Part shown: positions 19,454 through 46,247 of the stretch, piece by piece | How the letters are laid out: every line of letters begins with the position of its first letter | Numbering within the stretch: position 1 is the stretch's first letter | Assembly: GCA_025449645.1 (NCBI GenBank) | Contig: JANWIY010000082.1 | Coordinates: 1 to 51,202 of the forward strand | Reading direction: 5' to 3' | Length of the DNA: 51,202 bases | Source: Chitinophagaceae bacterium | GTDB taxonomy: Bacteria; Bacteroidota; Bacteroidia; Chitinophagales; Chitinophagaceae | Notes under the pieces: generated by a model | Databases searched by the model: none | Seen by the model: only the letters and a program-made list of their open reading frames with translations | What the model was told of the DNA's origin: nothing | Made by a program: the position numbers and the translations under genes

Positions 19454-20193
19454 AGCAGTTCATTTATTAACACGATCACTTGTTGCACATTATCCAGCCT
19501 GTATTTGGCCGAGGTTTCCCCTGCTCCCACCTTAATTGTGTAAGCATGCTCATTGTACTTTAATACCTCAAACATATCCTCGTCTGTTTTGTCATCTCCT
19601 ATGGATAATATAAAATCATAGTCTTCCCTCCCGAGCACGTAAACAGTTCCTTTACCTTTATCTATATCTTTCCGCCTGACCTCTACCACTTTTTTGCCGT
19701 CCATAATTTTAAGCCCGAATTCAGGTGCTCGGGCTGACAGCTCCCCGATGAGTGCACGGGAGCGTGAATACCCGCAATCTGCATCAGCATTCCTGTAATG
19801 ATAGGCCAGGGAAAACCTCTTATGTTCAATAAACGAGCCGGGGCAGGTTTTGGTAAACTTTTCCAGCATCGGAAAAAACAAATGCTGCCATTTGCCATCA
19901 TCAGCAATAAGTTGCTTCCACCTCAGGTCCTCGCGGATCATAGCTCCATGCTCGGCCACAATATCAATGGGCAGGTGACCCACAAACCCGTTTATGTCCT
20001 GATAAGCCCTGCCCGTGATTATAACCACACGGGTATTTGGCGATTTATTTAGTTTCAGCAGGGCGGATAACAGGTTTTCGGACGGCCTCGCCTCCTGAGG
20101 TAATTTCACATAATCCACCAGCGTTCCATCATAATCCAGTAATATCAGCTTGTTATTTGCTTTCCTGAAACTTTTAATTAAAAGATCTTTCAT
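19450..20193 (-). CDS. otsB: Trehalose-6-phosphate phosphatase
   Basis: The 247-residue protein is a HAD-superfamily phosphatase. The nucleophile motif LLDYDGTLVDYV has Asp20 and Asp22; motif II is VVIITGRAYQDI; the C-terminal acidic motif is ILSIGDDKTDEDMFE. The intervening cap (IVAEHGAMIREDLRW, then SFIEHKRFSLAYHYR) is that of OtsB. It removes phosphate from trehalose-6-phosphate to give trehalose, a compatible solute. It overlaps the downstream otsA by 4 bp (ATGA), so the two are translationally coupled. The order otsB-otsA is reversed relative to some operons but functionally equivalent. Confidence 0.94.
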   Translation of the reverse strand: MKDLLIKSFRKANNKLILLDYDGTLVDYVKLPQEARPSENLLSALLKLNKSPNTRVVIITGRAYQDINGFVGHLPIDIVAEHGAMIREDLRWKQLIADDGKWQHLFFPMLEKFTKTCPGSFIEHKRFSLAYHYRNADADCGYSRSRALIGELSARAPEFGLKIMDGKKVVEVRRKDIDKGKGTVYVLGREDYDFILSIGDDKTDEDMFEVLKYNEHAYTIKVGAGETSAKYRLDNVQQVIVLINELL

Positions 20194-20342
20194 TCCTTAT
20201 TCCATAAAATTAAAATTTCCTGCTGTCGTTGTCTTCTGAACGCCATCCGGCGAATTTAGTTAAAATATGTCTTCTCGCCGGCCCGGCAGCCTTTGCGCAG
20301 GAAAGCTTAAATCGGTTAACTTCATACCAATATAATAATACA

Positions 20343-21206
20343 ATGATGTATCCCGGCACACCTCTCTGCAGAACGCACAAACGCTTGTTGATATTTTCCC
20401 TGCTGGTCTTTTGCTTTTCCCACGTGAAAGCGCAAGAAGGCCAGGCTGAATTCAGGGTTATCAGTTTTTACACGGAAAGAAATGATCTGGCACATATCAG
20501 TTTTGTACACGAAGCAAACAAATGGTTTTATGAAATGGGCCAGAAATACCATTTCAGCTATGATTCAACCAATAACTGGAACAACATGAATCCCGGTTTT
20601 CTATCCCGTTACCAGGTGGTCATTTTTTTGGATACTCGTCCCGATTCTCCCGCCCAACGGGAAGCATTCAAAAATTATATGGACCATGGTGGCGGATGGA
20701 TGGGTTTTCATTTTTCAGGATTTGCTCTTACGCCTTCGGAATTCCCACAGAACTGGGACTGGTATCACAATGAATTCCTGGGATCCGGGTCTTACCTGAG
20801 CAACACATGGAGGCCGACCTCAGCCATATTGCGGGTGGAAGACAGGCATCATCCTGCAACCCGGAATTTGCCGGAAACATTCAAATCGGCTCCCAGTGAA
20901 TGGTACCGCTGGACGAATGATTTGAGAACCAATCCAAATATTGACATCCTCCTATCGATTGATTCAAGCAGCTACCCGCTCGGAACCGGACCTAAGCTAT
21001 CCGAAATCTGGCACAGCGGCTTTTATCCTGTTGTGTGGGCCAACAAAAATTACAGAATGGTTTACATGAATATGGGCCACAATGACATGGACTATGAGCA
21101 TAAAACGAACAAGGAATTATCCTCTACATTCAGCAGCGAAATTCAGGATCAGCTCATTCTCCAGGCGCTTTTTTGGGTCGGAAGATCGGAAATGAAATCG
21201 AAGTGA
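20343..21206 (+). CDS. Exported ThuA-like protein
   Basis: I start at the ATG at 20343 (287 residues; the next codon is also ATG). An upstream ATG at 20229 would add 38 residues that do not look like a leader. From 20343 there is a short basic stretch, a hydrophobic core (LLIFSLLVFCFS) and a cleavage-like VKAQ. The ThuA fold follows: FRVISFYTERNDLAHISFVHEA, YQVVIFLDTRPDSPAQREAFKNYMDHGGGWMGFHFSG and MVYMNMGHNDMDYEH near the end. ThuA-family proteins are glutamine-amidotransferase-like and linked to trehalose and 3-keto-disaccharide metabolism in rhizobia. It diverges from otsB. Function here is unproven. Confidence 0.85.
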   Translation: MMYPGTPLCRTHKRLLIFSLLVFCFSHVKAQEGQAEFRVISFYTERNDLAHISFVHEANKWFYEMGQKYHFSYDSTNNWNNMNPGFLSRYQVVIFLDTRPDSPAQREAFKNYMDHGGGWMGFHFSGFALTPSEFPQNWDWYHNEFLGSGSYLSNTWRPTSAILRVEDRHHPATRNLPETFKSAPSEWYRWTNDLRTNPNIDILLSIDSSSYPLGTGPKLSEIWHSGFYPVVWANKNYRMVYMNMGHNDMDYEHKTNKELSSTFSSEIQDQLILQALFWVGRSEMKSK

Positions 21207-21276: not shown

Positions 21277-22137
21277 TTACCTGATCGAATCGTAATACAG
21301 TGCTGCGGCACCCAGTATACCACAATTTTCCAGTTCCGATATTTTTATTTTGAGGCGTTCTGCGGAGCGGGGATAGACCAGGGTATGAATCTGTTTCCAC
21401 ATGTTCTCCGAGAAATAGGGATAAGCCAGGCGGACCGAGCCTCCAAGGATAATCAGACTGATATCATACGTGTAAAGGATGGTCTTTATAGCATTTCCGA
21501 GGTGAGTTCCCATTTCGCCGTACATGCGGATGGCTTCCGCATCACCTGCTGCCGCCTTTTTGAAAACTATTTCCCCGTCAACCCCGTAAACATTTTGAAA
21601 GAATTGCCCGCATGCATAATACTCATAAAATTTTTCCAGATAATCCACCATCCCAAATTCGCCCGCACCGCAATTGGCCCCCGCATATAATTTATCATGA
21701 ATAATAATCCCCGCGCCCAGTCCCGTTCCGATCGTGAGGCCAATCAGGGATCGCTGATCTTTTCCTTTTCCGTAATAAAGCTCTCCAAGTACAAAACAAT
21801 TCGCATCGTTATTTACGATCACAGGCACATGATATCTTTCTTCCATTAACTTCTTTAGCGGCACTTCCTTCCAGGATGGAATATTCTGCACATCATAAAC
21901 AATCCCCTCTTCCAGGTCCACAACGCTGGGAACACCGATGCCGATGGCTTTCACCGATTTATTGATCAACTGGTCCGTGAGCCCGAATATGTCTTTCATT
22001 ACCTCTTCGACGGAAGCCTGATTATCGATGCGTTTGGAATGAATGGCAGAAACAGCATTTTCATTCACCATGCCGCAACGCACATTCGTACCGCCAAGGT
22101 CTATGCCGATTACATATTCCTCCGGGTTATTTTTCAT
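21277..22137 (-). CDS. ROK-family sugar kinase (glucokinase/N-acetyl-hexosamine kinase type)
   Basis: The 286-residue protein has the phosphate-binding DLGGTN (13-18), the catalytic aspartate in NNDANC (Asp111) and the second ATP loop IGTGLGAGII (~136-145). These mark it as a ROK kinase that phosphorylates glucose, N-acetylglucosamine or a related sugar. The usual ROK zinc site (GH followed by CxCGxxGC) is largely missing: the segment reads GEFGM...YYACGQFF with a single cysteine. It lies 9 bp after a sugar MFS transporter gene, so import and phosphorylation are probably coupled. In a region with amino-sugar hydrolases, glucosamine or GlcNAc are reasonable substrates. Confidence 0.87.
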   Translation of the reverse strand: MKNNPEEYVIGIDLGGTNVRCGMVNENAVSAIHSKRIDNQASVEEVMKDIFGLTDQLINKSVKAIGIGVPSVVDLEEGIVYDVQNIPSWKEVPLKKLMEERYHVPVIVNNDANCFVLGELYYGKGKDQRSLIGLTIGTGLGAGIIIHDKLYAGANCGAGEFGMVDYLEKFYEYYACGQFFQNVYGVDGEIVFKKAAAGDAEAIRMYGEMGTHLGNAIKTILYTYDISLIILGGSVRLAYPYFSENMWKQIHTLVYPRSAERLKIKISELENCGILGAAALYYDSIR

Positions 22138-22146
22138 TTAATCATA

Positions 22147-23400
22147 TTATGGTTGCTCTTTGCTCTTAAAAAGCTGAATGGTTTTATTCGTGATGATCGG
22201 TTTTGCCCAAAATCCGATGCTGAGGATATAACCGAGCGTAATATATAAAAAGAACATGCCTGAGCGAAGCCCGAGATGGTCGCCCAGCCACCCGATGATC
22301 AGGGGAATAACGGCTCCTCCGATAATGCCGGTTACCAATATCCCTGAAAAAGACCCGTGGTGTTCATTTACGGAATTCAGTGCAAGTGAAAAAATGATCG
22401 GATACATAACGGAAGCAAAAAAACCCACACAGGGAAATGCGATCAGGGAAATCCTGGCCGGACCGAAAAGTGCAGCACTAAGGCAAATCAGGGCGAGAAT
22501 AGTGAAACTGATCAACACTTTCCGGCTGTCCATGATCTTTAGCAGCAATAAACCAACCACTCCGCCGGCAGTCATCAGGCCCCAGAAATAAGCCACATCA
22601 TCCGCACCCTTGGTTTGCGGATCAAATCCATGATAGGTTGACAAGAACTGGGATATCCAGTTGGCAACTCCCTGCTCAGTGCCTACATAACAAAACATGG
22701 CTATAAAGAACAACAGTACCACAGGTTGTTTGAATAACATCACATGCGTCTGCCAGGCGCCCACCTTTTCTTCCTTGCTCAATTCCACTTTTGGAAATTT
22801 TGAAAATAAAATAATCAGGATCATCAGCAGGCAGATAATAGTAAACACCCAATAAAGTGAAATCCATGGCAGATCCGAAGGAACAAGCGAGCGGAATGTT
22901 GAAATGATACCGGTGTGTGAACCTTCTTTAAGTTGTAGCACGAGATAAGAATAAACCAGCGGGCTAATAAAAGAAGCCAGTCCGAAAATCAATTGAGCCA
23001 GCACTGAATTAAACGCGTAGTGCTCCTCGCCGCCAGAAGTCCGCAGCAAAGGATTTATCACCACCTGCAGCATGGCCATGCCGCAGCCGATCAGGAAAAG
23101 AGAAATTACGGCAGTTAAATAGTTTGGGAAGACCGCGAGCATGAGGGAGCCTAAAAAAGCTACAACGAATCCCACTGCCATGATTTTTTTTTCTTTGTAT
23201 TTCTCAATTAGCATTCCGGAAGGAATGGACATAACCCCATAGGCGATAAAAAAAGCAAATGGCAGAAGGGCGACCAGCGTAAGACTGAGATGAAACCCAT
23301 TGATCATATCAGGAATCAATGGCCCGATCACATTAGTTAGAAAAGAAATTACAAAGAAAGTAAGCATAATGAGGCTTACGATGTAATAGTTGCGCTTCAT
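22147..23400 (-). CDS. Sugar MFS transporter (FucP/GluP/NagP-like)
   Basis: The 417-residue protein has twelve predicted helices and the FucP-type N-terminus (MLTFFVISFLTNVIGPLIPDM, then IPSGMLIEKYKEKK). FucP, GluP and the NagP-type chitin-pathway transporters of environmental bacteria belong to this group and carry hexoses or N-acetylglucosamine by proton symport. The adjacent ROK kinase starts 9 bp after its stop. Upstream lie 169 bp before the GMC gene, so a promoter for this pair may sit at 23401-23569, although I see no strong TAnnTTTG there. Exact substrate is inferred from neighbours. Confidence 0.87.
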   Translation of the reverse strand: MKRNYYIVSLIMLTFFVISFLTNVIGPLIPDMINGFHLSLTLVALLPFAFFIAYGVMSIPSGMLIEKYKEKKIMAVGFVVAFLGSLMLAVFPNYLTAVISLFLIGCGMAMLQVVINPLLRTSGGEEHYAFNSVLAQLIFGLASFISPLVYSYLVLQLKEGSHTGIISTFRSLVPSDLPWISLYWVFTIICLLMILIILFSKFPKVELSKEEKVGAWQTHVMLFKQPVVLLFFIAMFCYVGTEQGVANWISQFLSTYHGFDPQTKGADDVAYFWGLMTAGGVVGLLLLKIMDSRKVLISFTILALICLSAALFGPARISLIAFPCVGFFASVMYPIIFSLALNSVNEHHGSFSGILVTGIIGGAVIPLIIGWLGDHLGLRSGMFFLYITLGYILSIGFWAKPIITNKTIQLFKSKEQP

Positions 23401-23569
23401 AATGATGCTTTTTTAATAATCGGCCAGGACATCAGAAATGCAAAAATCAACTTGTATACCTGGCGGGATTATGACGGAGAATGGCGATTGATGCATAAAT
23501 ATATCGTGTTTCTATTAATCATTGCAAAATCCGGATGAATAATTGCCCGGCTATATTTGCCTGAATTTC

Positions 23570-25117
23570 CTAATGCCGCTTCAGCTTTCCCTTTAAGTGA
23601 TCCGAAAGCCGTATGCTCAATGCAATCAGGGTGAGCGTTGGATTTGGTGCGGCTGCGGTGACGAAACAGGAGGATCCGGCTACATACAAATTAGCAATAC
23701 CGTGAACCCTGCAATCGGCATCCACAACGCCGGCTTTAGAATCTTCGCTCATGCGGGTAGTGCCCATATGATGCCAGCCGCCTCCGGTAAATGAGGGCCA
23801 TGTGTAATCATTTTCATCCCACAAATATTCCAGCAGCTTTACGCGCGCAACACCCGCAAGGCCGGCCTGCTGTCCGATAAGCTCGTCGATTTTCCTGATA
23901 CTTTTCTTTTCCAGCGGGGTCAGTATCCAATTCAATATTGACCTGGGCATGCCCAGCGAATCCTTTTCTGTGTCCAGTGTAATCCGGGAAGATGGATTGG
24001 GAGCCTGTTCCACCCTGGTAAAAAGCTGAAATGCTTTATCGATGGGCGAAGCGCCTGCAGGTGGTTTTGCATGATCCGATTTTCTAAAATTCTGATACAG
24101 GTCCACAATATCTTTGCGGGGATCTTTCCCGGTCCATACATCGATGATCGGCCTTGTATTTCTGGCTGTGGCTAAAGGCGATAGAGAAACGGTTCCGTTG
24201 AGTATTTTAAACTCCCTCTGTTTTTCGGCGCTGATGGCCAGTTCGGACCTCATTTTAGTTCGGCCAAAATCCATCATATATAATTTCATGGAGTTAGGCC
24301 TGTCGAGCCAAAGTTCGCCGGATTTAATTTCCAGATGTTCCATAAAAAATCTTCCGACAAGCCCCTGGTCATTGCCCAGTCCTTGCGGAGCTTGTTTATT
24401 GGAAGCCAGCAATATCCTGGCATTCTGAATTGCCCCACAGGCAAGAATGAAATATTTTGCATGAACGGTATGCTCCTTTCCGGCATGATTTTTTACGGTA
24501 ACCTGCTTAACTGCAGACACATTTTCATTGGAAATTATATCGGTCAGGTTTGCATAAGTGTAAAGCTGAATATTCTTTGCGTCTTCGATCCTTTTCCTGT
24601 ATTTTGGTCCGAAGCGGGTGGGCGGACTGAATTGCCAGATCTTGTTCCAGACCACATTTTTGTCAAGCGGGAGGGGAATTAAATCAGGATCCTTTTTTTG
24701 CCAGTAATCCAGGTTATATTCATAAGGCCCCAGTTCCACGTTTTCCTGAGCACGGGCATAAAAAGGATCCAGGTCTTTTCTTGTAATCGGCCAGCCGCTA
24801 TATGGAACCCAGTCCCTTTTTTGAAAATCAATCTCATCCATTGTTGAGCAGTAACCCGCCCAGTGCCCGGTTGTGCCTCCAAAATAATGCAGGCGGGCCG
24901 ACCTTAAAGGAAAATAATGCTGCCCGGTTGTTTTGCCATCGTACAGATCCTGCACTTTTTCGTCATATTCAAATCCACCTCCTTCCAGCAGAATTATTTT
25001 ATGAGGGGAATTTATCCATTCAAGTGCGATGCTTAATCCGGCGGCACCCGCGCCCACAATGCAGATGTCGCCTTCGATCACAGAACCGCTCCGGAGCTCT
25101 CTGGCATCAATGTGCAT
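23570..25117 (-). CDS. GMC-family FAD-dependent sugar/alcohol dehydrogenase (large subunit)
   Basis: The 515-residue protein opens with an FAD-binding Rossmann motif (CIVGAGAAGLSIALEW, Gly22-x-Gly24-x-x-Gly27). It ends with the GMC_oxred_C signature GGGWHHMGTTRM (His449/His450) and APNPTLT (Asn492), the expected catalytic His/Asn pair. It lacks its own signal peptide. Homologues include the catalytic subunits of membrane-linked gluconate, fructose and glucoside-3-dehydrogenases, which are exported together with a small Tat-bearing partner. The gene 9 bp upstream encodes such a small protein. It probably oxidises a sugar in the periplasm and passes electrons to the respiratory chain. No cytochrome c gene (CxxCH) was seen nearby. 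Confidence 0.9.
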   Translation of the reverse strand: MHIDARELRSGSVIEGDICIVGAGAAGLSIALEWINSPHKIILLEGGGFEYDEKVQDLYDGKTTGQHYFPLRSARLHYFGGTTGHWAGYCSTMDEIDFQKRDWVPYSGWPITRKDLDPFYARAQENVELGPYEYNLDYWQKKDPDLIPLPLDKNVVWNKIWQFSPPTRFGPKYRKRIEDAKNIQLYTYANLTDIISNENVSAVKQVTVKNHAGKEHTVHAKYFILACGAIQNARILLASNKQAPQGLGNDQGLVGRFFMEHLEIKSGELWLDRPNSMKLYMMDFGRTKMRSELAISAEKQREFKILNGTVSLSPLATARNTRPIIDVWTGKDPRKDIVDLYQNFRKSDHAKPPAGASPIDKAFQLFTRVEQAPNPSSRITLDTEKDSLGMPRSILNWILTPLEKKSIRKIDELIGQQAGLAGVARVKLLEYLWDENDYTWPSFTGGGWHHMGTTRMSEDSKAGVVDADCRVHGIANLYVAGSSCFVTAAAPNPTLTLIALSIRLSDHLKGKLKRH

Positions 25118-25126
25118 AGGCCATAT

Positions 25127-25528
25127 TTAGGATGTCATAATTGAAAAAAGTGCGGCCTGCTGTGCCTCAGTAACAGATAAAATCCACCCGTTCATCACAA
25201 CTGTATTACCGGTAGTAAAATCATTTTGTATTTTTTTCTCCAGGAAAGAAGCGGTCACGGTCTCCCCGGACGGCCGGGCGGGCTCCTGGCCGGCTTCATC
25301 CGCCAGGAGCAAGTCCATCAGTAAATCTTCCCTGGCCTGGACCGGAAACCGGCTGGTGTAAGCCACCCCTATTCCCCTGATTGTTTTTGCATCGCAGATA
25401 CGCGACAGGAATGCCGGAGGGACCAGGCTTTTTTTTATTTCCCTGTTCCGGCCGGCACAGTCCAGCAGCGGGATGGCCATGGCAGCCAGACCCATAAAGG
25501 AAATATTGATGAAGGATTTCCTGTGCAC
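25127..25528 (-). CDS. Small 'subunit 3'-type partner of the GMC dehydrogenase
   Basis: The start is GTG at 25528 or TTG at 25534; no ATG is available. I prefer GTG because it gives MHRKSFINISFMG, like the MxRRxFL start of Tat-dependent partners, although only HRK is present where a full twin arginine is expected. A hydrophobic segment follows, ending at DCAG. The rest (~105 residues) contains IRGIGVAYTSRFP, a C-terminal NGWILSVTEAQQAALFS that resembles the end of gluconate-2-dehydrogenase subunit 3 proteins, and several acidic residues. These small proteins carry the GMC subunit through the Tat system as a hitch-hiker. The 9-bp spacing to the GMC gene supports this. Confidence 0.7.
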   Translation of the reverse strand: MHRKSFINISFMGLAAMAIPLLDCAGRNREIKKSLVPPAFLSRICDAKTIRGIGVAYTSRFPVQAREDLLMDLLLADEAGQEPARPSGETVTASFLEKKIQNDFTTGNTVVMNGWILSVTEAQQAALFSIMTS

Positions 25529-25646
25529 GGACAATCGTTTGAGACTATAAATCTAAAGAAGAAAGCGAAACCGCACCCAATTAAATTTAAAAATAGGAAA
25601 TGAACTTTCTCTATATATTGTAACTTAGTCTCCTAACGATTTTAAC

Positions 25647-28298
25647 ATGGGAAAACTTGTAGCGATTATCCTGCTTATATTCCTCAGCCTGCGTCTGGAT
25701 GCACAGCAAAATAAAAATGGAAATACTGTACTTAAGAATGGATGGGAAATGCAGTCATCCATGACCGTTACCGTACCTGGTAGTGAAATTTCAACGCCGA
25801 CGTACAAACCGGCAGGATGGTACAATATCAGCCTGCCTTCAACCATCATCGCGGGCCTGCTGAAGAACAAGCACTATGATTTTGATCCGTTTTACGGGAA
25901 AAATCTGGAAAGGATTGCGGGCCCGGAATTTGACAGTCCATGGTGGTTCAGAAAGGAATTTGTATTGTCTCCTGCTGACAAAGGAAAAAATATTACGCTT
26001 ATCCTGCATGGCATAAACTACCGTGCGAATGTGTGGCTGAACGGAGAGTTGATTGCAGATTCAAATCACATTATCGGACCATTCCGGATTTTTGATCTCG
26101 ACGTAAGTGCCAAAATTAAATACACAGGGACCAATGTATTGGCGCTTCAGGTGGTCCGTCCCTTCAATCCAAACAAGCGCGGAGGAGACCTGGCTATTGA
26201 TTATGCTGACTGGATCCATTACCCATCGGATTATAACGGCGGCATAGTCAATGATGTGGAGATCGGTTCCTGCGATAAAGTAGCAGTGCGATATCCGCTG
26301 GTCACGACCACATTCGACCTGCCTTCCCTGGCTACGGCGCATTTACAGGTAGATGCCGAGTTGATTAACTATTCAGACAAATCAGAGTCCGCATTGATCA
26401 AAGGAAAAATAAATGATGATATCATCTTTCAGCAGGAAGTGCATCTGCAGCCGGGGGAAGCAAAAGACGTGAATTTCGATCCGCGGGATTATCCGCAGCT
26501 GAATATCAAAAACCCACGCATCTGGTGGCCATGGCAATACGGTCAGCCGCAATTGAACAGGATAACACTTGAAGTGGTCAGAAACGGCAAAACAGGAAGT
26601 GGGGTTACAGAGAATTTCGGTATCCGGCAAATCACGTCTGAACTGATCGACAGCATGTCAAGGAAATTTATAGTGAATGGAAAACCAATCCTGCTTCGCG
26701 GAGCTGCATGGGCGCCGGACATATTCCAGCGTCGTTCTGGTGAAAGGCAGGAACAGGAAATCAGGCTCGTGCGGGACATGCATATGAATATCGTTCGCTC
26801 GGAAGGGAAACTGGAAGATGAACATTTTTATCAACTCTGTGATAAATATGGGTTACTGGTCATGACCGGCTGGATGTGTTGCGGCGCCTGGCAATACCCG
26901 GATAAATGGGATAGTGTAAAAAGAAATGTAGCCGTTGAATCAGACAGGAGCGTGATGTATTGGCTTAGAAATAAGGCTTGCATTTTAACCTGGCTCAATG
27001 GCAGCGATATGCCGCCAAGAGATACGGCTGTTGAAAGAGATTATTTAAATGTTGAAAAAGATTTGAAATTTCCGGATCCTATTCTTGCCACTGCAACTTC
27101 CGAGGTTTCTAAAGTATCCGGTCGCAGCGGTGTAAAAATGGACGGCCCTTACGAATGGGTGCCACCGGTATACTGGGAAGCCGACTCCAGCAGGTATGGA
27201 GGTGCCTGGAGTTTTGCAACGGAAATATCTCCCGGCCCTTCTATTCCTCCGATGGAAAGCCTGCTTAAATTCATCCCTGAAGATTCTCTTTCCACGACCA
27301 ACAGCCTCTGGCAATACCATTGCGGAACCATGCAATTTGGCAATACTAATATTTTTAACCAGGCACTCTCCGAAAGATACGGACCCTCTTCAACCATCCG
27401 GGATTTTGTGGCAAAAGCGCAGGCCCAGAATTATGAAGGGCACCGGGCAATGATGGAATCCTACGGCCTGAATAAATATAATCGGGCAACCGGTGTTGTG
27501 CAGTGGATGCTGAGCAATCCCTGGCCCAGCCTGATATGGCATACATATGATTATTACCTGTATCCCGCCGGCACATACTTTGGTATGAAGAAATCCATGG
27601 AAACGCTTCATGTTCAATATTCTTATAAATCCAGGGAAGTGATCATCAACAACTCCTTATTGCAAGCTTACAATAACCTTAGCGTGAAAGCCACTGTTTA
27701 TAACGGTGACGGGTCCCTGAAATACGAGCATTCCATCAGTGCTTCAGTCGGGGCCGATAACATCAAAAGATGCTTTGCTATTCCTGATATTGAGGGTCTG
27801 GATTCAGTTTATTTTCTCAGATTGGAAATGAAGGATGCATCTGCAAAAACCGTATCGCTGAACTGGTATTGGTTATCGAAAGCTGCAGATTCCCTGAACT
27901 GGAAAAAATCAACCTGGTTTTACACACCCCAATCTGCATTTACAGATTATCAGGGTTTGCAAAATCTGCCTTTGACTCCCCTGAAGGTTGGTTATACGAC
28001 AGAAAAAAATGCAACGGAGACCATTCAGCATATCCGCATGACGAATACAGGAAAAGCCATTGCATTCTTTGTTCATGTGCGTGCATTGAAAAAGAAAGGA
28101 GCTGATGACATTCTTCCTGTAATTTTTACAGACAATTACCTATTGATGGCGCCCGGTGAAACCAGAAATATAGATTGCAGCTATCTGAACAAAGATGCCG
28201 GTGAAGGAGTACCATACATAATGACCTCTGCATGGAATCTTGATTTGCATGGTAGCAAAGCCGAACAGAACGCAGGGTTTACCAATGAGATGAAGTAA
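25647..28298 (+). CDS. Glycoside hydrolase family 2, exo-beta-D-glucosaminidase-like
   Basis: The 883-residue protein has a signal peptide (LLIFLSLRLDAQ) and the GH2 order: sugar-binding domain (WYNISLPSTIIAGLL; SPWWFRKEF), beta-sandwich, then a TIM barrel starting at FIVNGKPILLRGAAWAPDIF. The acid/base fits Asp454 in WLNGSDMP and the nucleophile Glu526 in FATEISPGPSIPP. Their 72-residue spacing equals that recalled for Asp469 and Glu541 of exo-chitosanase CsxA. NGSD in place of the usual NE is characteristic of the glucosaminidase subgroup. It should release glucosamine (or, in relatives, mannose) from chain ends in the periplasm. The Gfo/Idh gene follows on the same strand. Confidence 0.88.
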   Translation: MGKLVAIILLIFLSLRLDAQQNKNGNTVLKNGWEMQSSMTVTVPGSEISTPTYKPAGWYNISLPSTIIAGLLKNKHYDFDPFYGKNLERIAGPEFDSPWWFRKEFVLSPADKGKNITLILHGINYRANVWLNGELIADSNHIIGPFRIFDLDVSAKIKYTGTNVLALQVVRPFNPNKRGGDLAIDYADWIHYPSDYNGGIVNDVEIGSCDKVAVRYPLVTTTFDLPSLATAHLQVDAELINYSDKSESALIKGKINDDIIFQQEVHLQPGEAKDVNFDPRDYPQLNIKNPRIWWPWQYGQPQLNRITLEVVRNGKTGSGVTENFGIRQITSELIDSMSRKFIVNGKPILLRGAAWAPDIFQRRSGERQEQEIRLVRDMHMNIVRSEGKLEDEHFYQLCDKYGLLVMTGWMCCGAWQYPDKWDSVKRNVAVESDRSVMYWLRNKACILTWLNGSDMPPRDTAVERDYLNVEKDLKFPDPILATATSEVSKVSGRSGVKMDGPYEWVPPVYWEADSSRYGGAWSFATEISPGPSIPPMESLLKFIPEDSLSTTNSLWQYHCGTMQFGNTNIFNQALSERYGPSSTIRDFVAKAQAQNYEGHRAMMESYGLNKYNRATGVVQWMLSNPWPSLIWHTYDYYLYPAGTYFGMKKSMETLHVQYSYKSREVIINNSLLQAYNNLSVKATVYNGDGSLKYEHSISASVGADNIKRCFAIPDIEGLDSVYFLRLEMKDASAKTVSLNWYWLSKAADSLNWKKSTWFYTPQSAFTDYQGLQNLPLTPLKVGYTTEKNATETIQHIRMTNTGKAIAFFVHVRALKKKGADDILPVIFTDNYLLMAPGETRNIDCSYLNKDAGEGVPYIMTSAWNLDLHGSKAEQNAGFTNEMK

Positions 28299-28311
28299 TT
28301 CGATACTGGTT

Positions 28312-28331
28312 ATGTGTTGCAGCACATTTTT
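28312..28331 (+). terminator. Weak hairpin with T-run between the GH2 and Gfo/Idh genes
   Basis: ATGTG (28312-28316) and CACAT (28323-28327) can pair around a 6-nt centre and are followed by TTTTT. The stem is short, so this is more likely to dampen than to end transcription into the oxidoreductase gene. Confidence 0.3.
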
Positions 28332-28352
28332 CTTTTCATAAATATTCTAAAT

Positions 28353-29876
28353 ATGAAAAAATTCAAGACAAAGGAGGGCGACAGCAGGATAAGCCGCGGA
28401 GATTTTATCAAACAATCGGCATTGACCGCAGCAGGATTTTATATTGTCCCCAGGCATGTACTGGGAGGCAGGGGATTTGTTGCACCAAGCGATAAATTAT
28501 ACATAGCAGCAATAGGTTGTGGAGGTGAGGCAGAAAATGATATTCATCATTATGCGACCGCGCCTAAAAAGAACGCGGTCATAGCATTTCTCTGCGACGT
28601 AGATCAGCGGATGGCAGCCCCAAGGCGAAAGGAATTTCCGAAAGCCGGATTCTATGAAGACTGGCGCGAATTATTCCAGAAAGAAAGCAAGCATTTTGAT
28701 GCGGTTTCTGTTGCCATACCAGATCATAATCACGCCATTGTCGGTTTAAGTGCAATGCATCTGAACAAACATCTTTACCTGCAAAAACCGCTTACCCATG
28801 ATATATTTGAAGCACGCATACTCACGGAGGCGGCAAAAAAATACAAGGTAGTTACGCAAATGGGCGACCAGGGCGCATCCAGTGGCGGTATGCGGACACT
28901 GAGGGAATGGTTCGAAGCCGGATTGCTGGGCGATATAGAAAAAGTGTATAACTGGACAAACCGTCCGGTTTGGCCCCAGGGAATTCCCTGGCCCGATAAA
29001 CATCCGCCGGTTCCAAAAGAATTGAATTGGGACCTCTGGTTGGGAACCGCAGAAAAAACGGATTATATTGATAACCTGGTGCCTTTTAACTGGCGTGGCT
29101 GGTGGAGATTTGGAACAGGCGCCCTCGGTGATATGGCATGCCATATCATCGGACCTTCTTTCAAATTGCTTGAACTTGGTTATCCTACGGAAGTTACCTG
29201 CAGCGCCAGCACGATCTATTCCGGGATATTTAAGGAAGCGGATTTCCCCGAAAGCATTCCTGTCGCAAGCCAACTCAGATACACATTCAAATTAAAAGAC
29301 GGGCGGGATCTCAAACTTTATTGGATGGATGGCGGAATGGTGCCTGACCGGCCGGATGAACTCGATCCGGATGTGAATGAAAATGAGGCGCTGGCAGACA
29401 CGCCCGAAGTAAATGACTACGAAGGCGGCAGCTTATTTGTCGGAACCAAGGGCAAGGCATCCTGCGGCTGGGGAGGGACCATTCCGAGGCTCTTGCCGCT
29501 TTCGCGTAACAAAGAAATAAATATTCCTCAAAAATATCCCCGCGTGGAAGGAGATATGGATGGCCACTGGTGGCAATGGGTTGATGCCTGCATAGCAGGT
29601 TATGGAAATGCTGAAGTGGATTCGCCATTCGTCGGATACGCCGGACCGCTTACAGAAACCGTACTCATGGGTAACCTCCTGTTGAGAAGCTTTAATTTGC
29701 GCCAAAAAGTAAAAAAGAACGATCCGGTTTACGGAGCAATGGAAGAATACGAAACGCCCGGCCGCTACATCAGCTACAAATGGGATGGGGCAAATATGCG
29801 GATCACTAATTTTGAACCCGCCAACCAATTTGTAAAAAGGAAATACAGGGATGGCTGGGGAGAATTGACATTATAA
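28353..29876 (+). CDS. Exported-type Gfo/Idh/MocA-family oxidoreductase
   Basis: I start at the ATG at 28353 (507 residues). An upstream in-frame ATG at 28314 adds 13 hydrophobic residues and would hide the leader. The N-terminus SRISRGDFIKQSALTAAGFYIVPR is the Tat-like leader usual for Bacteroidota Gfo/Idh proteins, although one of the twin arginines is not present. The nucleotide-binding motif is IAAIGCGGEAENDI and the EKP-type catalytic motif is LQKPLTHD (Lys145). A DMACHIIG segment (~270) supplies the conserved His of the C-terminal domain. Members interconvert sugar C-OH and keto groups, and some act as NAD-retaining glycosidases. It is 54 bp from the GH2 gene and probably shares its substrate. 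Confidence 0.88.
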   Translation: MKKFKTKEGDSRISRGDFIKQSALTAAGFYIVPRHVLGGRGFVAPSDKLYIAAIGCGGEAENDIHHYATAPKKNAVIAFLCDVDQRMAAPRRKEFPKAGFYEDWRELFQKESKHFDAVSVAIPDHNHAIVGLSAMHLNKHLYLQKPLTHDIFEARILTEAAKKYKVVTQMGDQGASSGGMRTLREWFEAGLLGDIEKVYNWTNRPVWPQGIPWPDKHPPVPKELNWDLWLGTAEKTDYIDNLVPFNWRGWWRFGTGALGDMACHIIGPSFKLLELGYPTEVTCSASTIYSGIFKEADFPESIPVASQLRYTFKLKDGRDLKLYWMDGGMVPDRPDELDPDVNENEALADTPEVNDYEGGSLFVGTKGKASCGWGGTIPRLLPLSRNKEINIPQKYPRVEGDMDGHWWQWVDACIAGYGNAEVDSPFVGYAGPLTETVLMGNLLLRSFNLRQKVKKNDPVYGAMEEYETPGRYISYKWDGANMRITNFEPANQFVKRKYRDGWGELTL

Positions 29877-29880
29877 AACT

Positions 29881-29905
29881 AAAAAAGGGCTGGCAAAGGC
29901 AGCCC
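29881..29905 (-). terminator. Rho-independent terminator of the 153-aa exported-protein gene
   Basis: On the minus strand, GGGCTG and CAGCCC arms (29887-29892 and 29100-block equivalent 29900-29905) enclose a 7-nt loop and are followed by six T residues (29881-29886 read in reverse). It lies 18 bp past the stop of the minus-strand gene ending at 29923. On the plus strand there is no T-run, so it does not suit the Gfo/Idh transcript. Confidence 0.75.
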
Positions 29906-29922
29906 CTGACACTAAAATAAAT

Positions 29923-30384
29923 TTAAGCATGGATGGCTCTCTTAACCGCACCCAGGGCGCCGTCAATGTGCATGAAAGCTCTTCCCTGCAATCCCTGGGA
30001 AAATTTATTGTCTTCATCCTGAGCGACATCTTTTCTTGCCTTGCGTAAAAAGTCCATCGCATCATGCAACCGGCCAGCATGATCAGGATGTTCGTCAACC
30101 CGTGGATGATCATTAATATCTTTCCCATCATCCAGAGCAGCCTTTTTGATTTCGTTTATAGCTGCATCTATTTCTTTAACCGCCTGAACTTCGTCTACCG
30201 TTTTATCCCAGTTGCCCGGGCGATGTTCAATCATCCATCGCGCAGCCCGCAAATCAGATAATGCATGAAGGTAATAAGGATGTTCGGCCAAACTTGCAGA
30301 GGTTCCGGCTTTTACAGAAGATAGGCTCATCGAAAATAAAATTAGCAATCCCGAGATCATTTTGATGAGAGGTAATTTTTTCAT
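29923..30384 (-). CDS. Exported helical protein of unknown function
   Basis: The 153-residue protein has a signal peptide (LIKMISGLLILFSMSLSSVKAG). The mature part is almost all amphipathic helix: HPYYLHALSDLRAARWMIEHR, VDEVQAVKEIDAAINEIKKAA, AGRLHDAMDFLRKARKDVAQ and FMHIDGALGAVKRAIHA. This suggests a four-helix bundle. Histidines recur at helix starts or within helices (HPYYLHA, EHR, EHPDHAGRLHDA, MHID), which could bind metal or heme, but no CxxCH is present. I recognise proteins of this pattern as short periplasmic hypotheticals in several phyla, with no function known to me. A good terminator follows it. Confidence 0.7.
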   Translation of the reverse strand: MKKLPLIKMISGLLILFSMSLSSVKAGTSASLAEHPYYLHALSDLRAARWMIEHRPGNWDKTVDEVQAVKEIDAAINEIKKAALDDGKDINDHPRVDEHPDHAGRLHDAMDFLRKARKDVAQDEDNKFSQGLQGRAFMHIDGALGAVKRAIHA

Positions 30385-30528
30385 GGTGTTTATTTTTAAT
30401 AATTTATGTGCGGGCAGGTATTTTCCGTAACCGCCGGTTATATGAACCTTAAATCAAAATATTTATTGCCGTGTTTTTCTTCTTAACAATTGATTGACAA
30501 GAAGGAAGACTCTGGATTCGGAACAAAC

Positions 30529-30548
30529 GGTTCCCCAAATGGGTTCCC
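30529..30548. repeat. Short direct repeat GGTTCCC upstream of the GH20 gene
   Basis: GGTTCCC occurs at 30529-30535 and again at 30542-30548, 13 bp apart, with a GGAAC/GTTCC dyad (30520-30533) overlapping the first copy. It lies 50-70 bp before the GH20 start and might be an operator; the short length makes chance likely. Confidence 0.22.
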
Positions 30549-30597
30549 GGAATTTACTCCATGATTTTTAATTATATTCGGTACTCAAATTTTCAGG

Positions 30598-32508
30598 ATG
30601 AAAAAATTGGACACCCGGGTTTGTTTTTGTTTTTTTCTACTTATTTTATTTCGACCAGCTGCAAGGGCGGCAGATAATTCGCCAATCCGTCTCATCCCGC
30701 AACCCGTCAGCCTGGTTGACCGGCCTGGCCTGTTTATGTTTGATCATTCAGTTCCCCTTATTATTAGTATGCCGGGCCAGGAATTGAATGAAACAGCAAA
30801 ATGGTTTTTGAATCAATTGGCCTTAACAACGGGCATCAGCATTCAACAAAAGAAATCCGGAAAGAACGGTATTCACCTAAGCCTGATCCCAGGCGGGAGC
30901 CAGAAAGAAATTGGAAAGGAAGGTTATATTTTGTCTGTCAGTCCTTCGTCTGTTTCCTTGAAGGCCAATACCGTTGCAGGAATTTTTTACGGTATGCAAA
31001 CCTTATTACAGCTGCTGCCACCAGATGCCAGAACGGTTTTCGGCGGCGAACAAAAGCGGCTGGGTATGCCCTGTGCAGAAATCACCGATTATCCCCGTTT
31101 TGGCTGGCGCGGGATTATGCTTGATGTGAGCCGCCATTTCTTCACAAAGGAGGAAGTGGAGAAATATATTGATGAAATAGTCATGTTTAAATATAATGTA
31201 TTGCACCTGCATCTGAGTGATGATCAGGGCTGGCGGATCGAAATAAAGAGCCTGCCGCAGCTGACCAGCGTGGGTGCCTGGCGTGTGAAACGTACCGGCG
31301 CATGGGGGCAGTTCCTGCCGGCCCTGGCACACGAACCGGCAACTGATGGCGGATTTTACACGCAGGATGATATGCGGGAAATCATCAAATACGCAAAGCA
31401 GCGAAACGTGACCATCTTACCCGAAATTGATGTGCCTGCCCATAGTCTCGCTTTGATAACAGCTTACCCCAATCTTTCCTGCACCCAATTGCCTTACAGT
31501 GTAAACGCAGGATTTCATGACCCGGTCAGGGATGATAATGCACTATGTATCGGCAATGATTCAGTTTTTCTCATACTGGATAAAATATTTACCGAGCTGG
31601 CGGCTTTATTTCCATGTGAATATATTCACGTGGGCGGCGACGAGGCTTATAAGGGTTTTTGGGCTGACTGTCCGAAATGTCAAAAACGGATGGCTGATGA
31701 GCATCTGAAAAATGTGGATGAATTGCAGAGTTATTTTGTAAAAAGGGTGGAGAAAATACTGGAGGCCAAAGGTAAAAAACTGATCGGATGGGATGAAATA
31801 CTGGAAGGAGGGCTGGCTCCGGAAGCAACGGTCATGAGCTGGAGAGGAATGAAGGGCGGGATAGAAGCCGCAAGGATGCAACATCACGTGGTCATGACAC
31901 CCTGGGACTATACCTACCTCGACCTCTACCAGGGTGAGATTACTGCGGAACCGCCAACTTATGGGATGTGTCTCCTGAGCGATTCTTATAATTGGGATCC
32001 GGTTCCTGACAGTGTTGATGAAAAATATATTTTGGGTGGGCAGGGAAATCTGTGGACGGAAAGAGTTCCAAATTTTCGCCAGGTGGAATACATGACCTGG
32101 CCCCGCGCGCTCGCGCTCTCCGAAGTGTACTGGAGTCCCAGGGCCAGCCGGAACTGGGATGATTTTATTAAGAGAATGGAAATCCAGTTTGTACGGTTTG
32201 ACGCTGCGGGAATCAAATATGCAAGAAGTGCCTACAACGTGATCTTTAAGCCTGTACGGAGCACCGGACGGGATTTTAATGTGATGTTGTCAACCGAAAT
32301 TAAAGGACTCGACATCTACTATTCATTCGATTTCACGAACCCGGACTCATTTTACCCTAAATACGATGGCAAACCAATCAGCTTTCCATTCGGTTCCGAT
32401 CAATTGAATGTCATCACCTACCGCGATGGGAAACCGATTGGCAGACAAATAAATATTAAAAAAGAAGAATTGGCCGGTCGGCTAAATCAGAGGAGGCATG
32501 AATATTAG
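30598..32508 (+). CDS. Family 20 beta-N-acetylhexosaminidase
   Basis: The 636-residue protein has a signal peptide ending near ARAADN, then a GH20b N-terminal domain (~28-160; LIPQPVSLVDRPG). The GH20 barrel starts at YPRFGWRGIMLDVSRHF and carries the catalytic pair Asp348-Glu349 in IHVGGDEAYKGFW. HLHLSDDQGWRIEIKSLP and WTERV are also typical. The C-terminal ~100 residues resemble the Fn3/CHB_HEX_C region (FNVMLSTEIKGLDIYYSFDFTNP). It releases terminal GlcNAc or GalNAc from chitooligosaccharides or glycans by substrate-assisted catalysis. With the GH2 glucosaminidase it could handle both acetylated and deacetylated units of partly acetylated chitosan. Confidence 0.95.
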   Translation: MKKLDTRVCFCFFLLILFRPAARAADNSPIRLIPQPVSLVDRPGLFMFDHSVPLIISMPGQELNETAKWFLNQLALTTGISIQQKKSGKNGIHLSLIPGGSQKEIGKEGYILSVSPSSVSLKANTVAGIFYGMQTLLQLLPPDARTVFGGEQKRLGMPCAEITDYPRFGWRGIMLDVSRHFFTKEEVEKYIDEIVMFKYNVLHLHLSDDQGWRIEIKSLPQLTSVGAWRVKRTGAWGQFLPALAHEPATDGGFYTQDDMREIIKYAKQRNVTILPEIDVPAHSLALITAYPNLSCTQLPYSVNAGFHDPVRDDNALCIGNDSVFLILDKIFTELAALFPCEYIHVGGDEAYKGFWADCPKCQKRMADEHLKNVDELQSYFVKRVEKILEAKGKKLIGWDEILEGGLAPEATVMSWRGMKGGIEAARMQHHVVMTPWDYTYLDLYQGEITAEPPTYGMCLLSDSYNWDPVPDSVDEKYILGGQGNLWTERVPNFRQVEYMTWPRALALSEVYWSPRASRNWDDFIKRMEIQFVRFDAAGIKYARSAYNVIFKPVRSTGRDFNVMLSTEIKGLDIYYSFDFTNPDSFYPKYDGKPISFPFGSDQLNVITYRDGKPIGRQINIKKEELAGRLNQRRHEY

Positions 32509-33280: not shown

Positions 33281-33967
33281 TTATTCGCCGGTGTATGGAT
33301 CTTTGATTTTCTTTATTCTGTATGTAATATTTGAAAATCTGACTTCACATCTGTTACCGGTTGGCGATTGTGCCAGGAATCCTACCTGAAAACCTTTATG
33401 CGTGTCAAATTGCAGGTGTCTGATCAGGAACCATTTCATACCGTTCACAGAATAATAAAGTGTGATTACGTTATCGGCCTTTGCGACCTTGTAAAAAACC
33501 TTATTTGCCTTAATCTCAACTGAGTTGCAGTCGTCAGAAATATTTTTTGTTACAACACTTACCACCCTTCTTGCGCCAGTATAATCTTTTTCAAAACAAA
33601 ACTTGATCCAATTTAAACTGTCCTGCCTGATTACAATTGCTCCCCCATCCCATTTGTTAGCAAAAGTATGTTCTATTGATGCAGTAAGTACAAAGTTATC
33701 ATCAGCTTTAAATAGAAGTTTCGGTGCATTGTCGGTGTTGTAAGTCACATTCGGATCCCTGAACATATCCGTTTTATGTCCGGCTACAATTACCAGTTGA
33801 TTCCCCCTTATAAAATACTTTTCGGGTGGATTTTCCCAAAACAATTCGTAAGGAATCGATCCAATCCTCAACGCACCCATTTTTTGGGCTTCGGCTTTAA
33901 AATGGATTAAGGAAACCGTTAATAATAATACGATGAACCTAACTTGTTTTGTCTTGTCCACGGCCAT
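33281..33967 (-). CDS. DUF1349-family concanavalin-like exported protein
   Basis: The 228-residue protein has a signal peptide (FIVLLLTVSLIHFKAEAQ). A DUF1349 beta-sandwich fold follows: WENPPEKYFIRGNQLVIVAGHKTDMFRDP, DGGAIVIRQDSLNWIKFCFE, YYSVNGMKWFLIRHLQF and a terminal VRFSNITYRI. These lectin-like folds bind or cleave carbohydrate in some relatives. Its ATG shares one base with the stop of the preceding DUF1080 gene (TAATG), so the two are translationally coupled. A carbohydrate-related role in the periplasm or on the cell surface is likely but unproven. Confidence 0.85.
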   Translation of the reverse strand: MAVDKTKQVRFIVLLLTVSLIHFKAEAQKMGALRIGSIPYELFWENPPEKYFIRGNQLVIVAGHKTDMFRDPNVTYNTDNAPKLLFKADDNFVLTASIEHTFANKWDGGAIVIRQDSLNWIKFCFEKDYTGARRVVSVVTKNISDDCNSVEIKANKVFYKVAKADNVITLYYSVNGMKWFLIRHLQFDTHKGFQVGFLAQSPTGNRCEVRFSNITYRIKKIKDPYTGE

Positions 33968-34905
33968 TATTTTGGAAGTGAAATTTCAATATTCCGGAAG
34001 TCAATAGGGCCGTGGTCCCCCTGAAAGTAAATAGGGCCCGGGTCCGCTTCTTTACTGTCGATTGCACCGCCGGTTATTCCTGGAATTTCCTGGTTGCAAA
34101 TAACCATTTTTCCATTTACCACAACTGTTACCATTCTTCCGACCAGGGTTATATCGTATGATTGCCATTCCCCGGCGTCCTTTGCCATCATTTCGCTCGG
34201 AGCAAGAAATCCGTATACAGCTCCAAGCTGATCATTCAGCGGTTCCATTCCTTTACTATCCTCAATCTGCACTTCGTAGCGTCCCCTAAGGTAAACACCA
34301 CTATTGCTGCCTTTCGGATACCTGAATTCAACATGGAGTTTAAAGTCCCTAAAGGTTTGATCGGTTTCAATATTAGAACCGGATGCAGGGCTTCGGAGCA
34401 TTCCGGCTTCTGCCACCCATTGATTTTTACCGAGAGCATGCCAGCCTTTAAGATCATTGCCATTAAAGAGCTTTACAGGATCCGCCCAAACCGGTTCTGA
34501 TCCTTCCCTGAGAGAAGGTGCACGGAGTCCGACCCAGCGATATTTCTTTCCACTGGGAACAAGCATGGAACCTGTTAAACTATCCCCCTGGAAACTGCCC
34601 TCTACTAAAAGATCTTTATTTTCCGGCTCCCACTGCGGTGGAATAGCAAAGCTCATCTTGCCATCGCTAAAGTTAATCTTCGAGATGGGGCGGGCGCTTC
34701 CACCACCGCCGACAAACCGGCCCACAAGTGTATGTAATCCCGAATGGCGCACCTCGAGCCAGGAAGGAAATTGTCTGTCTGTATCATAAACGGTAAGATC
34801 CCAGCGGCCTTCTATTGAAACTGCATCCATCTTTCCCGATGAAGAATCGGTTGTTTTTGTCCATGAAATTCCTGTTAAAAATAAAATGGCCATTATTTTT
34901 TTCAT
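33967..34905 (-). CDS. DUF1080 (3-keto-disaccharide hydrolase-type) protein with extra N-terminal beta domain
   Basis: The 312-residue protein has a signal-like start (MKKIMAILFLTGISW), then an additional ~110-residue beta domain (SIEGRWDLTVYDTDRQFPSWLEV to YRWVGLRAP) that the second DUF1080 protein in this window lacks. The DUF1080 jelly-roll begins at VKLFNGNDLKGWHALG. It continues through FKLHVEFRYPKGSNSGVYLRGRYEVQIED, GAVYGFLAPSE, QSYDITLVGRMVTVVVNGK and PIYFQGDHGPIDFRNIEI. The family is now linked to hydrolysis or elimination of 3-keto-glycosides. It follows a beta-propeller gene by 62 bp and is coupled to the DUF1349 gene. Confidence 0.87.
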   Translation of the reverse strand: MKKIMAILFLTGISWTKTTDSSSGKMDAVSIEGRWDLTVYDTDRQFPSWLEVRHSGLHTLVGRFVGGGGSARPISKINFSDGKMSFAIPPQWEPENKDLLVEGSFQGDSLTGSMLVPSGKKYRWVGLRAPSLREGSEPVWADPVKLFNGNDLKGWHALGKNQWVAEAGMLRSPASGSNIETDQTFRDFKLHVEFRYPKGSNSGVYLRGRYEVQIEDSKGMEPLNDQLGAVYGFLAPSEMMAKDAGEWQSYDITLVGRMVTVVVNGKMVICNQEIPGITGGAIDSKEADPGPIYFQGDHGPIDFRNIEISLPK

Positions 34906-41099: not shown

Positions 41100-41540
41100 C
41101 TATATCTCATCTCCCCGGGGCCTGAATTCCTGAGACAGCGTACTCTTTATTTCGCTGCAGATATAAGTCCTCCCGCAGTGCACTTCAATGATTGCTTTAA
41201 AAATCTCTTCCGGAGAGGAGATTTTGGTCACATAGCCGGTCGCCCCACTTTCCAGCATCTCCTGTACATATTCCGCGCGAATATGAAATGATAGTCCGAT
41301 GATTTTTGTGTGAGGACATGATTCACGAATCAACTGCGTTGCTTCAATACCACTGATTCCCCGCAAACGAATATCCATAATAACGATGTCGGGGCATAAT
41401 TCCCTTGCTAATTCAACAGCCGTTTCTCCGCTCTCGCATTCGGCAATAACCTTATAACGAAAGTCCTGGTTCAACATAAACACCCACGCCTTTCTTATCA
41501 GCGGGTGGTCTTCTACAACGAGTATCCTAATCTGATCCAT
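41100..41540 (-). CDS. Single-domain response regulator receiver (NarL-type without HTH)
   Basis: I start at the ATG at 41540 (146 residues); an ATG 18 bp earlier adds six residues. It has the receiver signature: ILVVEDHP (acidic pair), phosphoacceptor in DIVIMDIRLRG (Asp56 from this start), conserved Ser in IIGLSFH and Lys in YVTKISSPEEI. The sequence is closest to receivers of the NarL/FixJ group, but the protein stops about 30 residues after the receiver, where the LuxR-type HTH would begin. No HTH follows in another frame nearby. It may act by protein-protein contact. It lies 56 bp downstream of an AraC-type gene on the same strand. No histidine kinase gene is in the window. Confidence 0.85.
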   Translation of the reverse strand: MDQIRILVVEDHPLIRKAWVFMLNQDFRYKVIAECESGETAVELARELCPDIVIMDIRLRGISGIEATQLIRESCPHTKIIGLSFHIRAEYVQEMLESGATGYVTKISSPEEIFKAIIEVHCGRTYICSEIKSTLSQEFRPRGDEI

Positions 41541-41614
41541 TTTTTTAAGGGACTGCAAAGGTCAGTCATTCATAAAAAACGAATCTTTATAAATCAACGA
41601 AATGTCTTTGAATT

Positions 41615-45952: not shown

Positions 45953-46151
45953 AAAATAGAAAAATCGTCAGGCAAAACCCGCGTCCCTTAGTTGCATGGA
46001 TTTCATTCAGTTTGTTAGCCAGCATCCCTGGCCGGCACCAGCATTCTCTGGATTATTCAATACCCAAACCAAATTAGAAAGGCAAATAATTAGTTGGAAG
46101 CTGCAACCCATAATCAGCTGAGATACTTCGGTTAATGGCCTTGCAATGAGC

Positions 46152-46172
46152 ACCTGAAAAATATTTTCAGGT
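46152..46172. promoter_or_regulatory. Perfect 9-bp inverted repeat upstream of the YCII/ECF pair
   Basis: ACCTGAAAA (46152-46160) and its exact complement TTTTCAGGT (46164-46172) flank a 3-bp centre. The dyad lies about 24 bp upstream of the -33 element of the YCII promoter. A perfect 9-bp arm is unlikely by chance, so an operator is a good guess. A terminator is less likely, as no T-run follows on either strand. Confidence 0.5.
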
Positions 46173-46195
46173 ATTGTCCAGTTCACGCGATCCCG

Positions 46196-46225: not shown

Positions 46226-46247
46226 ATAACCATTAAAATTTAAGAAA

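Follow-up and report, generated by a model that had tools for sequence, protein, structure and literature searches.

We analysed a stretch of 51,202 nucleotides (positions 1 to 51,202 of contig JANWIY010000082.1, C82 in our numbering; hereafter the window) from the Chitinophagaceae bacterium assembly GCA_025449645.1, a 3.59 Mb draft genome that is 86% complete. Between positions 21277 and 32508, a homologue of glycoside 3-dehydrogenases from the Gfo/Idh/MocA family stands among predicted amino-sugar hydrolases, a sugar transporter and a sugar kinase. A first-pass annotation had proposed that this group, together with DUF1080 proteins elsewhere in the window, forms a 3-keto-glycoside system acting on amino-sugar glycans. 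All of the genes that it named are present in the list of open reading frames (ORFs), at the coordinates given here and in the last section, and Pfam assigns them the same domains. The central genes are the following.

21277-22137, minus strand: ROK sugar kinase (Pfam and NCBIfam)
22147-23400, minus strand: sugar transporter of the major facilitator superfamily (MFS), gluP/fucP/NagP type (Pfam and NCBIfam)
23570-25117, minus strand: GMC oxidoreductase, probable sugar dehydrogenase (PF05199), outside the conserved cassette described below
25127-25534, minus strand: small ORF with a TTG start, a partner of the GMC protein resembling substrates of twin-arginine translocation (Tat)
25647-28298, plus strand: exo-beta-D-glucosaminidase of glycoside hydrolase family 2 (GH2), GH2_16 type, with an Ig_GlcNase domain (Pfam) and a signal-like N-terminus
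28314-29876, plus strand: Gfo/Idh/MocA glycoside 3-dehydrogenase homologue, its Met start likely at 28353, 54 nt after the GH2 gene
30598-32508, plus strand: beta-N-acetylhexosaminidase of family GH20 (PF00728, 373 bits; HVGGDE motif)
33967-34905, minus strand: DUF1080 a, with a 3-keto-disaccharide hydrolase domain (PF06439, 150.2 bits, cut-off 26.8); link to the system uncertain
45227-45952, plus strand: DUF1080 b, 3-keto-disaccharide hydrolase (PF06439, 148.8 bits, cut-off 26.8)

The Gfo/Idh/MocA protein

Homology and a predicted structure support placing the Gfo/Idh/MocA protein (the Gfo protein) with the glycoside 3-dehydrogenases, in agreement with its earlier listing among the parts of 3-keto-glycoside breakdown. 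It matches the NCBIfam model NF058561 (BT_2158_fam glycoside 3-dehydrogenase) with 426.8 bits and an expectation value (E) of 9.5e-128, a score below the curated cut-off of 750, and aligns with structure 8tdf at E 8.2e-130 over profile positions 34-462 of 475. Of the solved structures listed, 8tdf and 8tdh alone give a match that spans almost the whole protein; their titles identify both as the Alistipes glucoside-3-dehydrogenase AL3, one of them with trehalose bound. The AL3 entries are likewise the top Foldseek matches of an AlphaFold model of the protein (template modelling scores 0.72/0.83, E 7.2e-40). This model, built from 40 more diverse sequences, has a mean predicted local distance difference test score of 85.4, compared with 42.6 for one built from 21 close sequences. 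Across 40 aligned dehydrogenase rows, K158 and D273 never vary, while H277 is kept in at least 90%; we take K158 to be the Lys of the E/QKP motif and D273 and H277 to be the Asp and His of the GDMxCHI segment, all three presumably catalytic. AL3 and the window protein are alike in fold, in full-length homology and in the KPLTH and GTGALGDMACHI segments. Unlike AL3 and the BT_2158_fam proteins, the window copy belongs to a group of 73-96% identical proteins with neighbours of its own, and it lies behind a GH2 gene instead of a DUF1080 gene.

The protein had also been called Tat-like, a description that holds only loosely, as its N-terminus reads SRGDFIK, with a single Arg. A simple pattern applied to 89 orthologue rows (the 80 loci introduced below and nine same-genus loci, some on identical contigs) finds R-x in 57, R-R in 18, R-K in 13 and no motif in one, and an export signal on the Gfo protein appears doubtful. 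Elsewhere in the window genome lie two Gfo paralogues in tandem (L046 8585-11476, on G000:C38), 54% and 47-48% identical to the window copy.

The DUF1080-dehydrogenase cassette in Bacteroidota

In a same-genus set of 58 related genomes, 15 (the window's own included) carry dehydrogenase copies of at least 69% identity, distributed over 16 loci. At seven of these 16 loci an orthologue of DUF1080 b, 64-83% identical, lies directly upstream of the dehydrogenase, with a divergent MFS gene at five of the seven and a ROK gene at four. In the window and in its sister genome the GH2 gene occupies this slot, and DUF1080 b lies elsewhere, in the window 15 kb away. At its new place it is followed, in both genomes, by the gene of a sigma factor with DUF6596 (45227-47869 for the two genes in the window), which puts the relocation before the split of the two lineages. 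The proposal that DUF1080 belongs to the system is supported for the gene at 45 kb, the orthologue of the dehydrogenase's direct upstream neighbour.

A wider set was obtained by scanning a genome collection with peptide patterns; the best 80 of 153 relatives, at 73-96% identity and labelled Chitinophagaceae, Mucilaginibacter, Bacteroidales, Bacteroidetes and others, were compared with a control of 21 loci carrying 51-55% identical paralogues, which come from related genomes of one family and are unmatched to the 80 in number or taxa. Flanks are complete in 47 of the 80 loci and in 18 of the 21 control loci. The two sets overlap, some of the 80 being contigs already represented among the same-genus loci (for instance L071 and L031), and should not be read as independent.

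At 66 of the 80 loci the next gene upstream, in the same orientation, encodes a DUF1080 protein. By profile, DUF1080 occurs within 6 kb at 70/80 loci against 1/21 paralogue loci, a comparison biased towards the test set, whose loci, with the window, supplied the sequences for the DUF1080 and NagB profiles. BLAST counts over the same distance give DUF1080 at 70 loci, MFS at 23, NagB-like genes at 19, ROK at 12 and a PfkB/Khk-type kinase at 7, followed by GH20, GH2 and ThuA (three each), carbohydrate esterase family 4 (CE4; two) and GMC (one); the control yields a single NagB and no DUF1080, MFS, ROK, GH2 or GH20. The DUF1080-dehydrogenase grouping is conserved across Bacteroidota, more than chance would allow.

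Tandem Gfo copies occur in several of the control loci, a set in which DUF1080 is seen at one of 21. At L082, L130, L138 and L143, an isomerase-like TIM-barrel protein of the AP_endonuc_2 type is encoded a few genes from the dehydrogenase (identified by Pfam at L082 and L130, by clustering at the others). Such proteins also accompany the Agrobacterium phlorizin system, in which, according to the available text of PMC10628242, putative sugar phosphate isomerases are the 3-keto-glycoside eliminase and hydratase.

Amino-sugar genes and the interpretation of the locus

The two hydrolases had been read as an exo-beta-glucosaminidase and an N-acetylhexosaminidase, and both assignments stand. The GH20 protein carries PF00728 and matches structure 6q63 at E 4.8e-131, and its HVGGDE motif places an Asp-Glu pair, catalytic in GH20, within the family domain. 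The best solved relative of the GH2 protein is the glucosaminidase CsxA (2vzs; E 2.7e-155 over 25-867), whose catalytic D469 and E541 align to D454 and E526 (residues counted by hand). The GH2_16 glucosaminidase subfamily is defined, in the available text of PMC12243196, by SD at the NE position and by a Glu that replaces His; the SD motif, Glu386 and E526 are present in all 12 aligned GH2 sequences, window included. CsxA and the window enzyme share the SD motif, the Glu replacing His and both catalytic residues, and differ in that the window enzyme precedes a 3-dehydrogenase gene.

Relatives of the GH2 protein at 60% identity or more were found in 10 genomes, with eight loci besides the window and its sister (L051-L058). 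The MFS-ROK pair adjoins GH2 at three of the eight (G007, G012 and G021), where no dehydrogenase is nearby, and a CE4-type polysaccharide deacetylase adjoins it at three (L052, L053 and L055; Pfam on one), likely representing the step from chitin to chitosan. A search of the phylum at E of 1e-150 or lower found the GH2 in only 4 of 247 genomes besides the window's, at 34-36% identity. Since the MFS-ROK pair stands beside GH2 as well as beside DUF1080-dehydrogenase pairs, one transporter-kinase type is common to both modules. Quick trees of MFS and ROK mix the GH2-linked and dehydrogenase-linked copies, with several weakly supported forks; the ROK proteins of the window and sister group with the GH2-adjacent copy of G007 with a Shimodaira-Hasegawa-like likelihood-ratio support (SH-aLRT) of 100.

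In other genera, too, amino-sugar genes stand around the dehydrogenase. A NagB/AgaI-like gene lies immediately downstream, on the same strand, at 19/80 loci, and NagB is detected by profile within 6 kb at 20/80 loci against 1/21 paralogue loci. In 9 kb flanks, GH2 is near the dehydrogenase at 4/80 loci (the sister L071, L074, L081 and, as a fragment where a contig ends, L077) and GH20 at 3/80 (the sister, L072 and L081), a recurrence that is real but rare. In Parafilimonas terrae DSM 28286 (L081) the order is GH20, DUF1080, dehydrogenase and NagB-like gene, with GH2 about 6 kb further on; in Ginsengibacter hankyongi BR5-29 (L072) it is GH20, DUF1080, dehydrogenase and MFS. GH20 thus stands directly in front of the DUF1080-dehydrogenase pair in both, and L074 shows GH2 and MFS divergent to DUF1080 and the dehydrogenase. 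At least one of NagB, GH2, GH20, ROK and MFS is found within 6 kb at 35/80 loci, and the amino-sugar ties of the cassette recur in a minority of loci.

For the 11 NagB-like copies scanned (one partial), models of NagB/AgaI give much higher scores than that of 6-phosphogluconolactonase. D72, E73, H143 and E148 are kept in all 16 NagB-like alignment rows, and two same-genus copies exceed the cut-off of the galactosamine-6-phosphate isomerase model NF007291 (295.6 and 272.8 against 271). At seven loci (L105, L113, L117, L118, L124, L134 and L149), mostly labelled Bacteroidales, the NagB-like gene is followed by a ketohexokinase-type kinase of PF25270 (by Pfam on L105, by clustering at the others), which a simple route through glucosamine-6-phosphate (GlcN-6-P) does not account for.

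These conserved neighbourhoods support the central idea of a 3-keto pathway that touches amino-sugar glycans, and the partial recurrence of the pairing in related bacteria hints that amino-sugar materials have an oxidative route that has received little study. More specifically, the locus may be a conserved Bacteroidota cassette, for the 3-keto breakage of glycosides, in rearranged form and joined to amino-sugar hydrolases, a view that we hold to be as probable as its negation. Its core would consist of a secreted DUF1080 protein and a Gfo-type glycoside 3-dehydrogenase, supplemented in the smaller share of genomes by a neighbouring gene for an MFS importer, for a ROK kinase or for a protein like NagB/AgaI. 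In the lineage of the window, GH2, the exo-glucosaminidase, would have replaced DUF1080 in its slot, leaving the DUF1080 gene 15 kb off.

In the order of steps and the compartments that we propose, GH20 and GH2 would hydrolyse N-acetylglucosamine (GlcNAc) and glucosamine (GlcN) ends off chitin- or chitosan-like chains, and the dehydrogenase would oxidise C3 of the end sugar in linkages closed to these hydrolases. The 3-keto sugar, freed next by the DUF1080 protein, would be reduced either by this dehydrogenase or by a Gfo paralogue; the monosaccharide would be imported by the MFS protein and phosphorylated by the ROK kinase. If the product is GlcN-6-P, it could be deaminated by a NagB-type enzyme encoded elsewhere in the genome. 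The narrower proposal, that the Gfo dehydrogenase and DUF1080 form a dedicated 3-keto route for GlcN and GlcNAc glycosides closed to GH2 and GH20 and feed importer, kinase and deaminase, is offered tentatively, at slightly under an even chance. The system as first proposed is accordingly retained in part: the Gfo dehydrogenase, DUF1080 b, GH2 and the recurring amino-sugar genes speak for it, and the GMC pair and ThuA find no support as members.

Several observations weigh against an amino-sugar substrate. All five markers are absent within 6 kb at 45/80 loci, and GH2 and the dehydrogenase lie on separate contigs in five same-genus genomes. Nine of the 11 NagB-like copies fall below every curated cut-off and none passes a NagB model; the position of E. 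coli NagB D141 is Asn in all 14 aligned cassette copies, as in E. coli AgaI, whose role there is described as auxiliary only in the available part of a review (PMC12118421). The window contains no NagB, and the two copies in its genome share 25-31% identity with those of the cassettes. The C38 paralogues, which lack a DUF1080 neighbour, score 491 bits each with the glycoside 3-dehydrogenase model against 421 for the window copy, none exceeding the cut-off. The sugar bound in the closest solved enzyme, trehalose, is neutral, and MFS and ROK score highest, though below cut-off, with NCBIfam models of glucose families. Because the NagB evidence is mixed and over half of the loci carry no amino-sugar or uptake marker, we regard the amino-sugar reading as about evenly balanced.

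The last two of these points, together with the 45 marker-free loci, fit a cassette for neutral glucosides (trehalose, lactose or those of plants, for example), in which MFS and ROK would handle glucose; GH2 and GH20 would then be nearby only through a hot spot of carbohydrate genes. DUF1080 has been linked to lactose use in other bacteria, at least in the available text of PMC9007349, and ThuA and trehalose synthesis genes adjoin the locus. This explanation is possible, at clearly less than an even chance; it is countered by the NagB-like gene, immediately downstream at 19 of the 80 loci and within 6 kb at one of 21 in the control, by the occurrence of the same MFS-ROK type beside the glucosaminidase alone, and by the recurrence of GH2 and GH20 in other genera. 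It is unlikely that the locus serves purely hydrolytic scavenging of chitin or chitosan by GH20, GH2, MFS and ROK, with the dehydrogenase as a passenger and the GMC protein as an unrelated alcohol or polyol dehydrogenase. The GH2 loci of G007, G012 and G021 and the loss of the GMC pair in the sister would agree with it; however, the dehydrogenase pairs with DUF1080 far outside the genus and looks well maintained, being 97% identical to its sister copy against 87% for GH2, although MFS (95%), ROK (94%) and MacB (98%) are similar. Very improbably, the Gfo protein could be a one-enzyme glycosidase of family GH109 acting with bound nicotinamide adenine dinucleotide (NAD) on an amino-sugar glycoside: it shares the superfamily, and its NAD domain is matched by 6t2b (GH109) and by 2ixa, an alpha-N-acetylgalactosaminidase that we take to be GH109, but both matches are confined to the Rossmann part, the GGHGG acid/base loop is missing from all 21 aligned sequences, the window's among them, and a DUF1080 partner would be superfluous.

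Returning to the 3-keto cassette with amino-sugar ties, its proposed chemistry has several known counterparts. BT2157, a 3-ketotrehalose hydrolase, and the Caulobacter LacABC system with CCNA_01705, a DUF1080-based 3-keto pathway, have in common with the window a PF06439 hydrolase acting on a 3-keto sugar, as far as the available text of PMC9007349 describes them. There, LacABC is a membrane-bound three-part dehydrogenase for neutral sugars, whereas the window has a Gfo-type enzyme with amino-sugar genes. The Agrobacterium phlorizin operon (AtOGE, AtHYD and Gfo; PMC10628242) proceeds through C3 oxidation, elimination, hydration and reduction, as would the route proposed here; its substrates are glucosides of plant phenols, and the available text describes no amino-sugar genes. 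GH109 enzymes are Gfo-type and NAD-dependent, as the window protein is predicted to be, and cleave glycosides through a transient oxidation of their own (PMC10628242, available text); the title of a reference in that paper identifies one member as an N-acetylgalactosaminidase. The suggestion that an amino-sugar version would be new is thereby narrowed, as GH109 already uses transient oxidation on such a substrate, and it keeps its force in that the window protein is not GH109. In the open-licence literature of PubMed Central we recognised, by title or abstract, no 3-keto pathway for amino-sugar glycans. If the proposal is true, 3-keto-glycoside chemistry extends to glycans that contain nitrogen, among them chitosan and the remnants of chitin, and the release of amino-sugar nitrogen gains an oxidative branch that is invisible to hydrolase-based annotation. 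As P. terrae DSM 28286 and G. hankyongi BR5-29 hold compact versions, the idea is directly testable.

The GMC pair and other genes of the window

The GMC protein and its small export partner had been included in the system, and as its C3 oxidase we set them aside, because most of the pair is deleted in the sister and the GMC orthologues elsewhere have no directly adjoining sugar gene among the neighbours examined. The sister carries one clean 1.79 kb deletion that removes GMC codons 1-453 and the entire small partner (window 23001-23752 and 25542-26000 correspond to 5653-6404 and 6408-6866 of the sister locus L031); the sister is a draft assembly, for which a misassembly at this point is conceivable, and no N run is present there. 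Among the neighbours examined of the other GMC orthologues (a peptidase, NfeD, band-7, a di-haem peroxidase and others), no sugar gene is directly adjacent, though at L059 MFS and ROK lie some 8 kb off, and the single GMC among the 80 cassette loci is the remnant in the sister. The Gfo protein is the better oxidase candidate.

The GMC protein is similar to pyranose oxidases and to dehydrogenases of glucose and of fructose from bacteria (6a2u, a glucose dehydrogenase, at E 6.6e-29). The small ORF at 25127-25534 has no Pfam match; a similar small gene lies beside GMC orthologues at seven of nine loci (L059-L063, L065 and L066), several with an RR start. A pair of a glycoside dehydrogenase and a small Tat protein, GlycDH-TAT, is used for C3 oxidation in the system described in the available text of PMC10628242, and the window GMC pair resembles it. 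Among the 40 window proteins scanned with Pfam there is no cytochrome c. LacABC includes a cytochrome c subunit.

The remaining genes of interest in the window are the following.

17225-20193: trehalose-6-phosphate synthase and phosphatase, adjoining the ThuA gene
20229-21206, plus strand: ThuA-domain protein (PF06283, 116 bits), with no evidence of belonging to the system
33281-34905: DUF1349 and DUF1080 a, neighbours
41100-42529: response regulator and AraC-type regulator

ThuA, which had been counted among the parts of the system, occurs within 6 kb at only three of the 80 loci and is left out of it; as the trehalose-6-phosphate genes adjoin it, ThuA may equally well be linked to trehalose as to glycans. 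The DUF1349 gene and DUF1080 a are kept in the sister, at 88% and 96% identity. The pair at 41100-42529 may regulate the system, since pairs of 64-66% identity are found close to the dehydrogenase in G017 (L038) and close to the GMC gene in G005 (L062).

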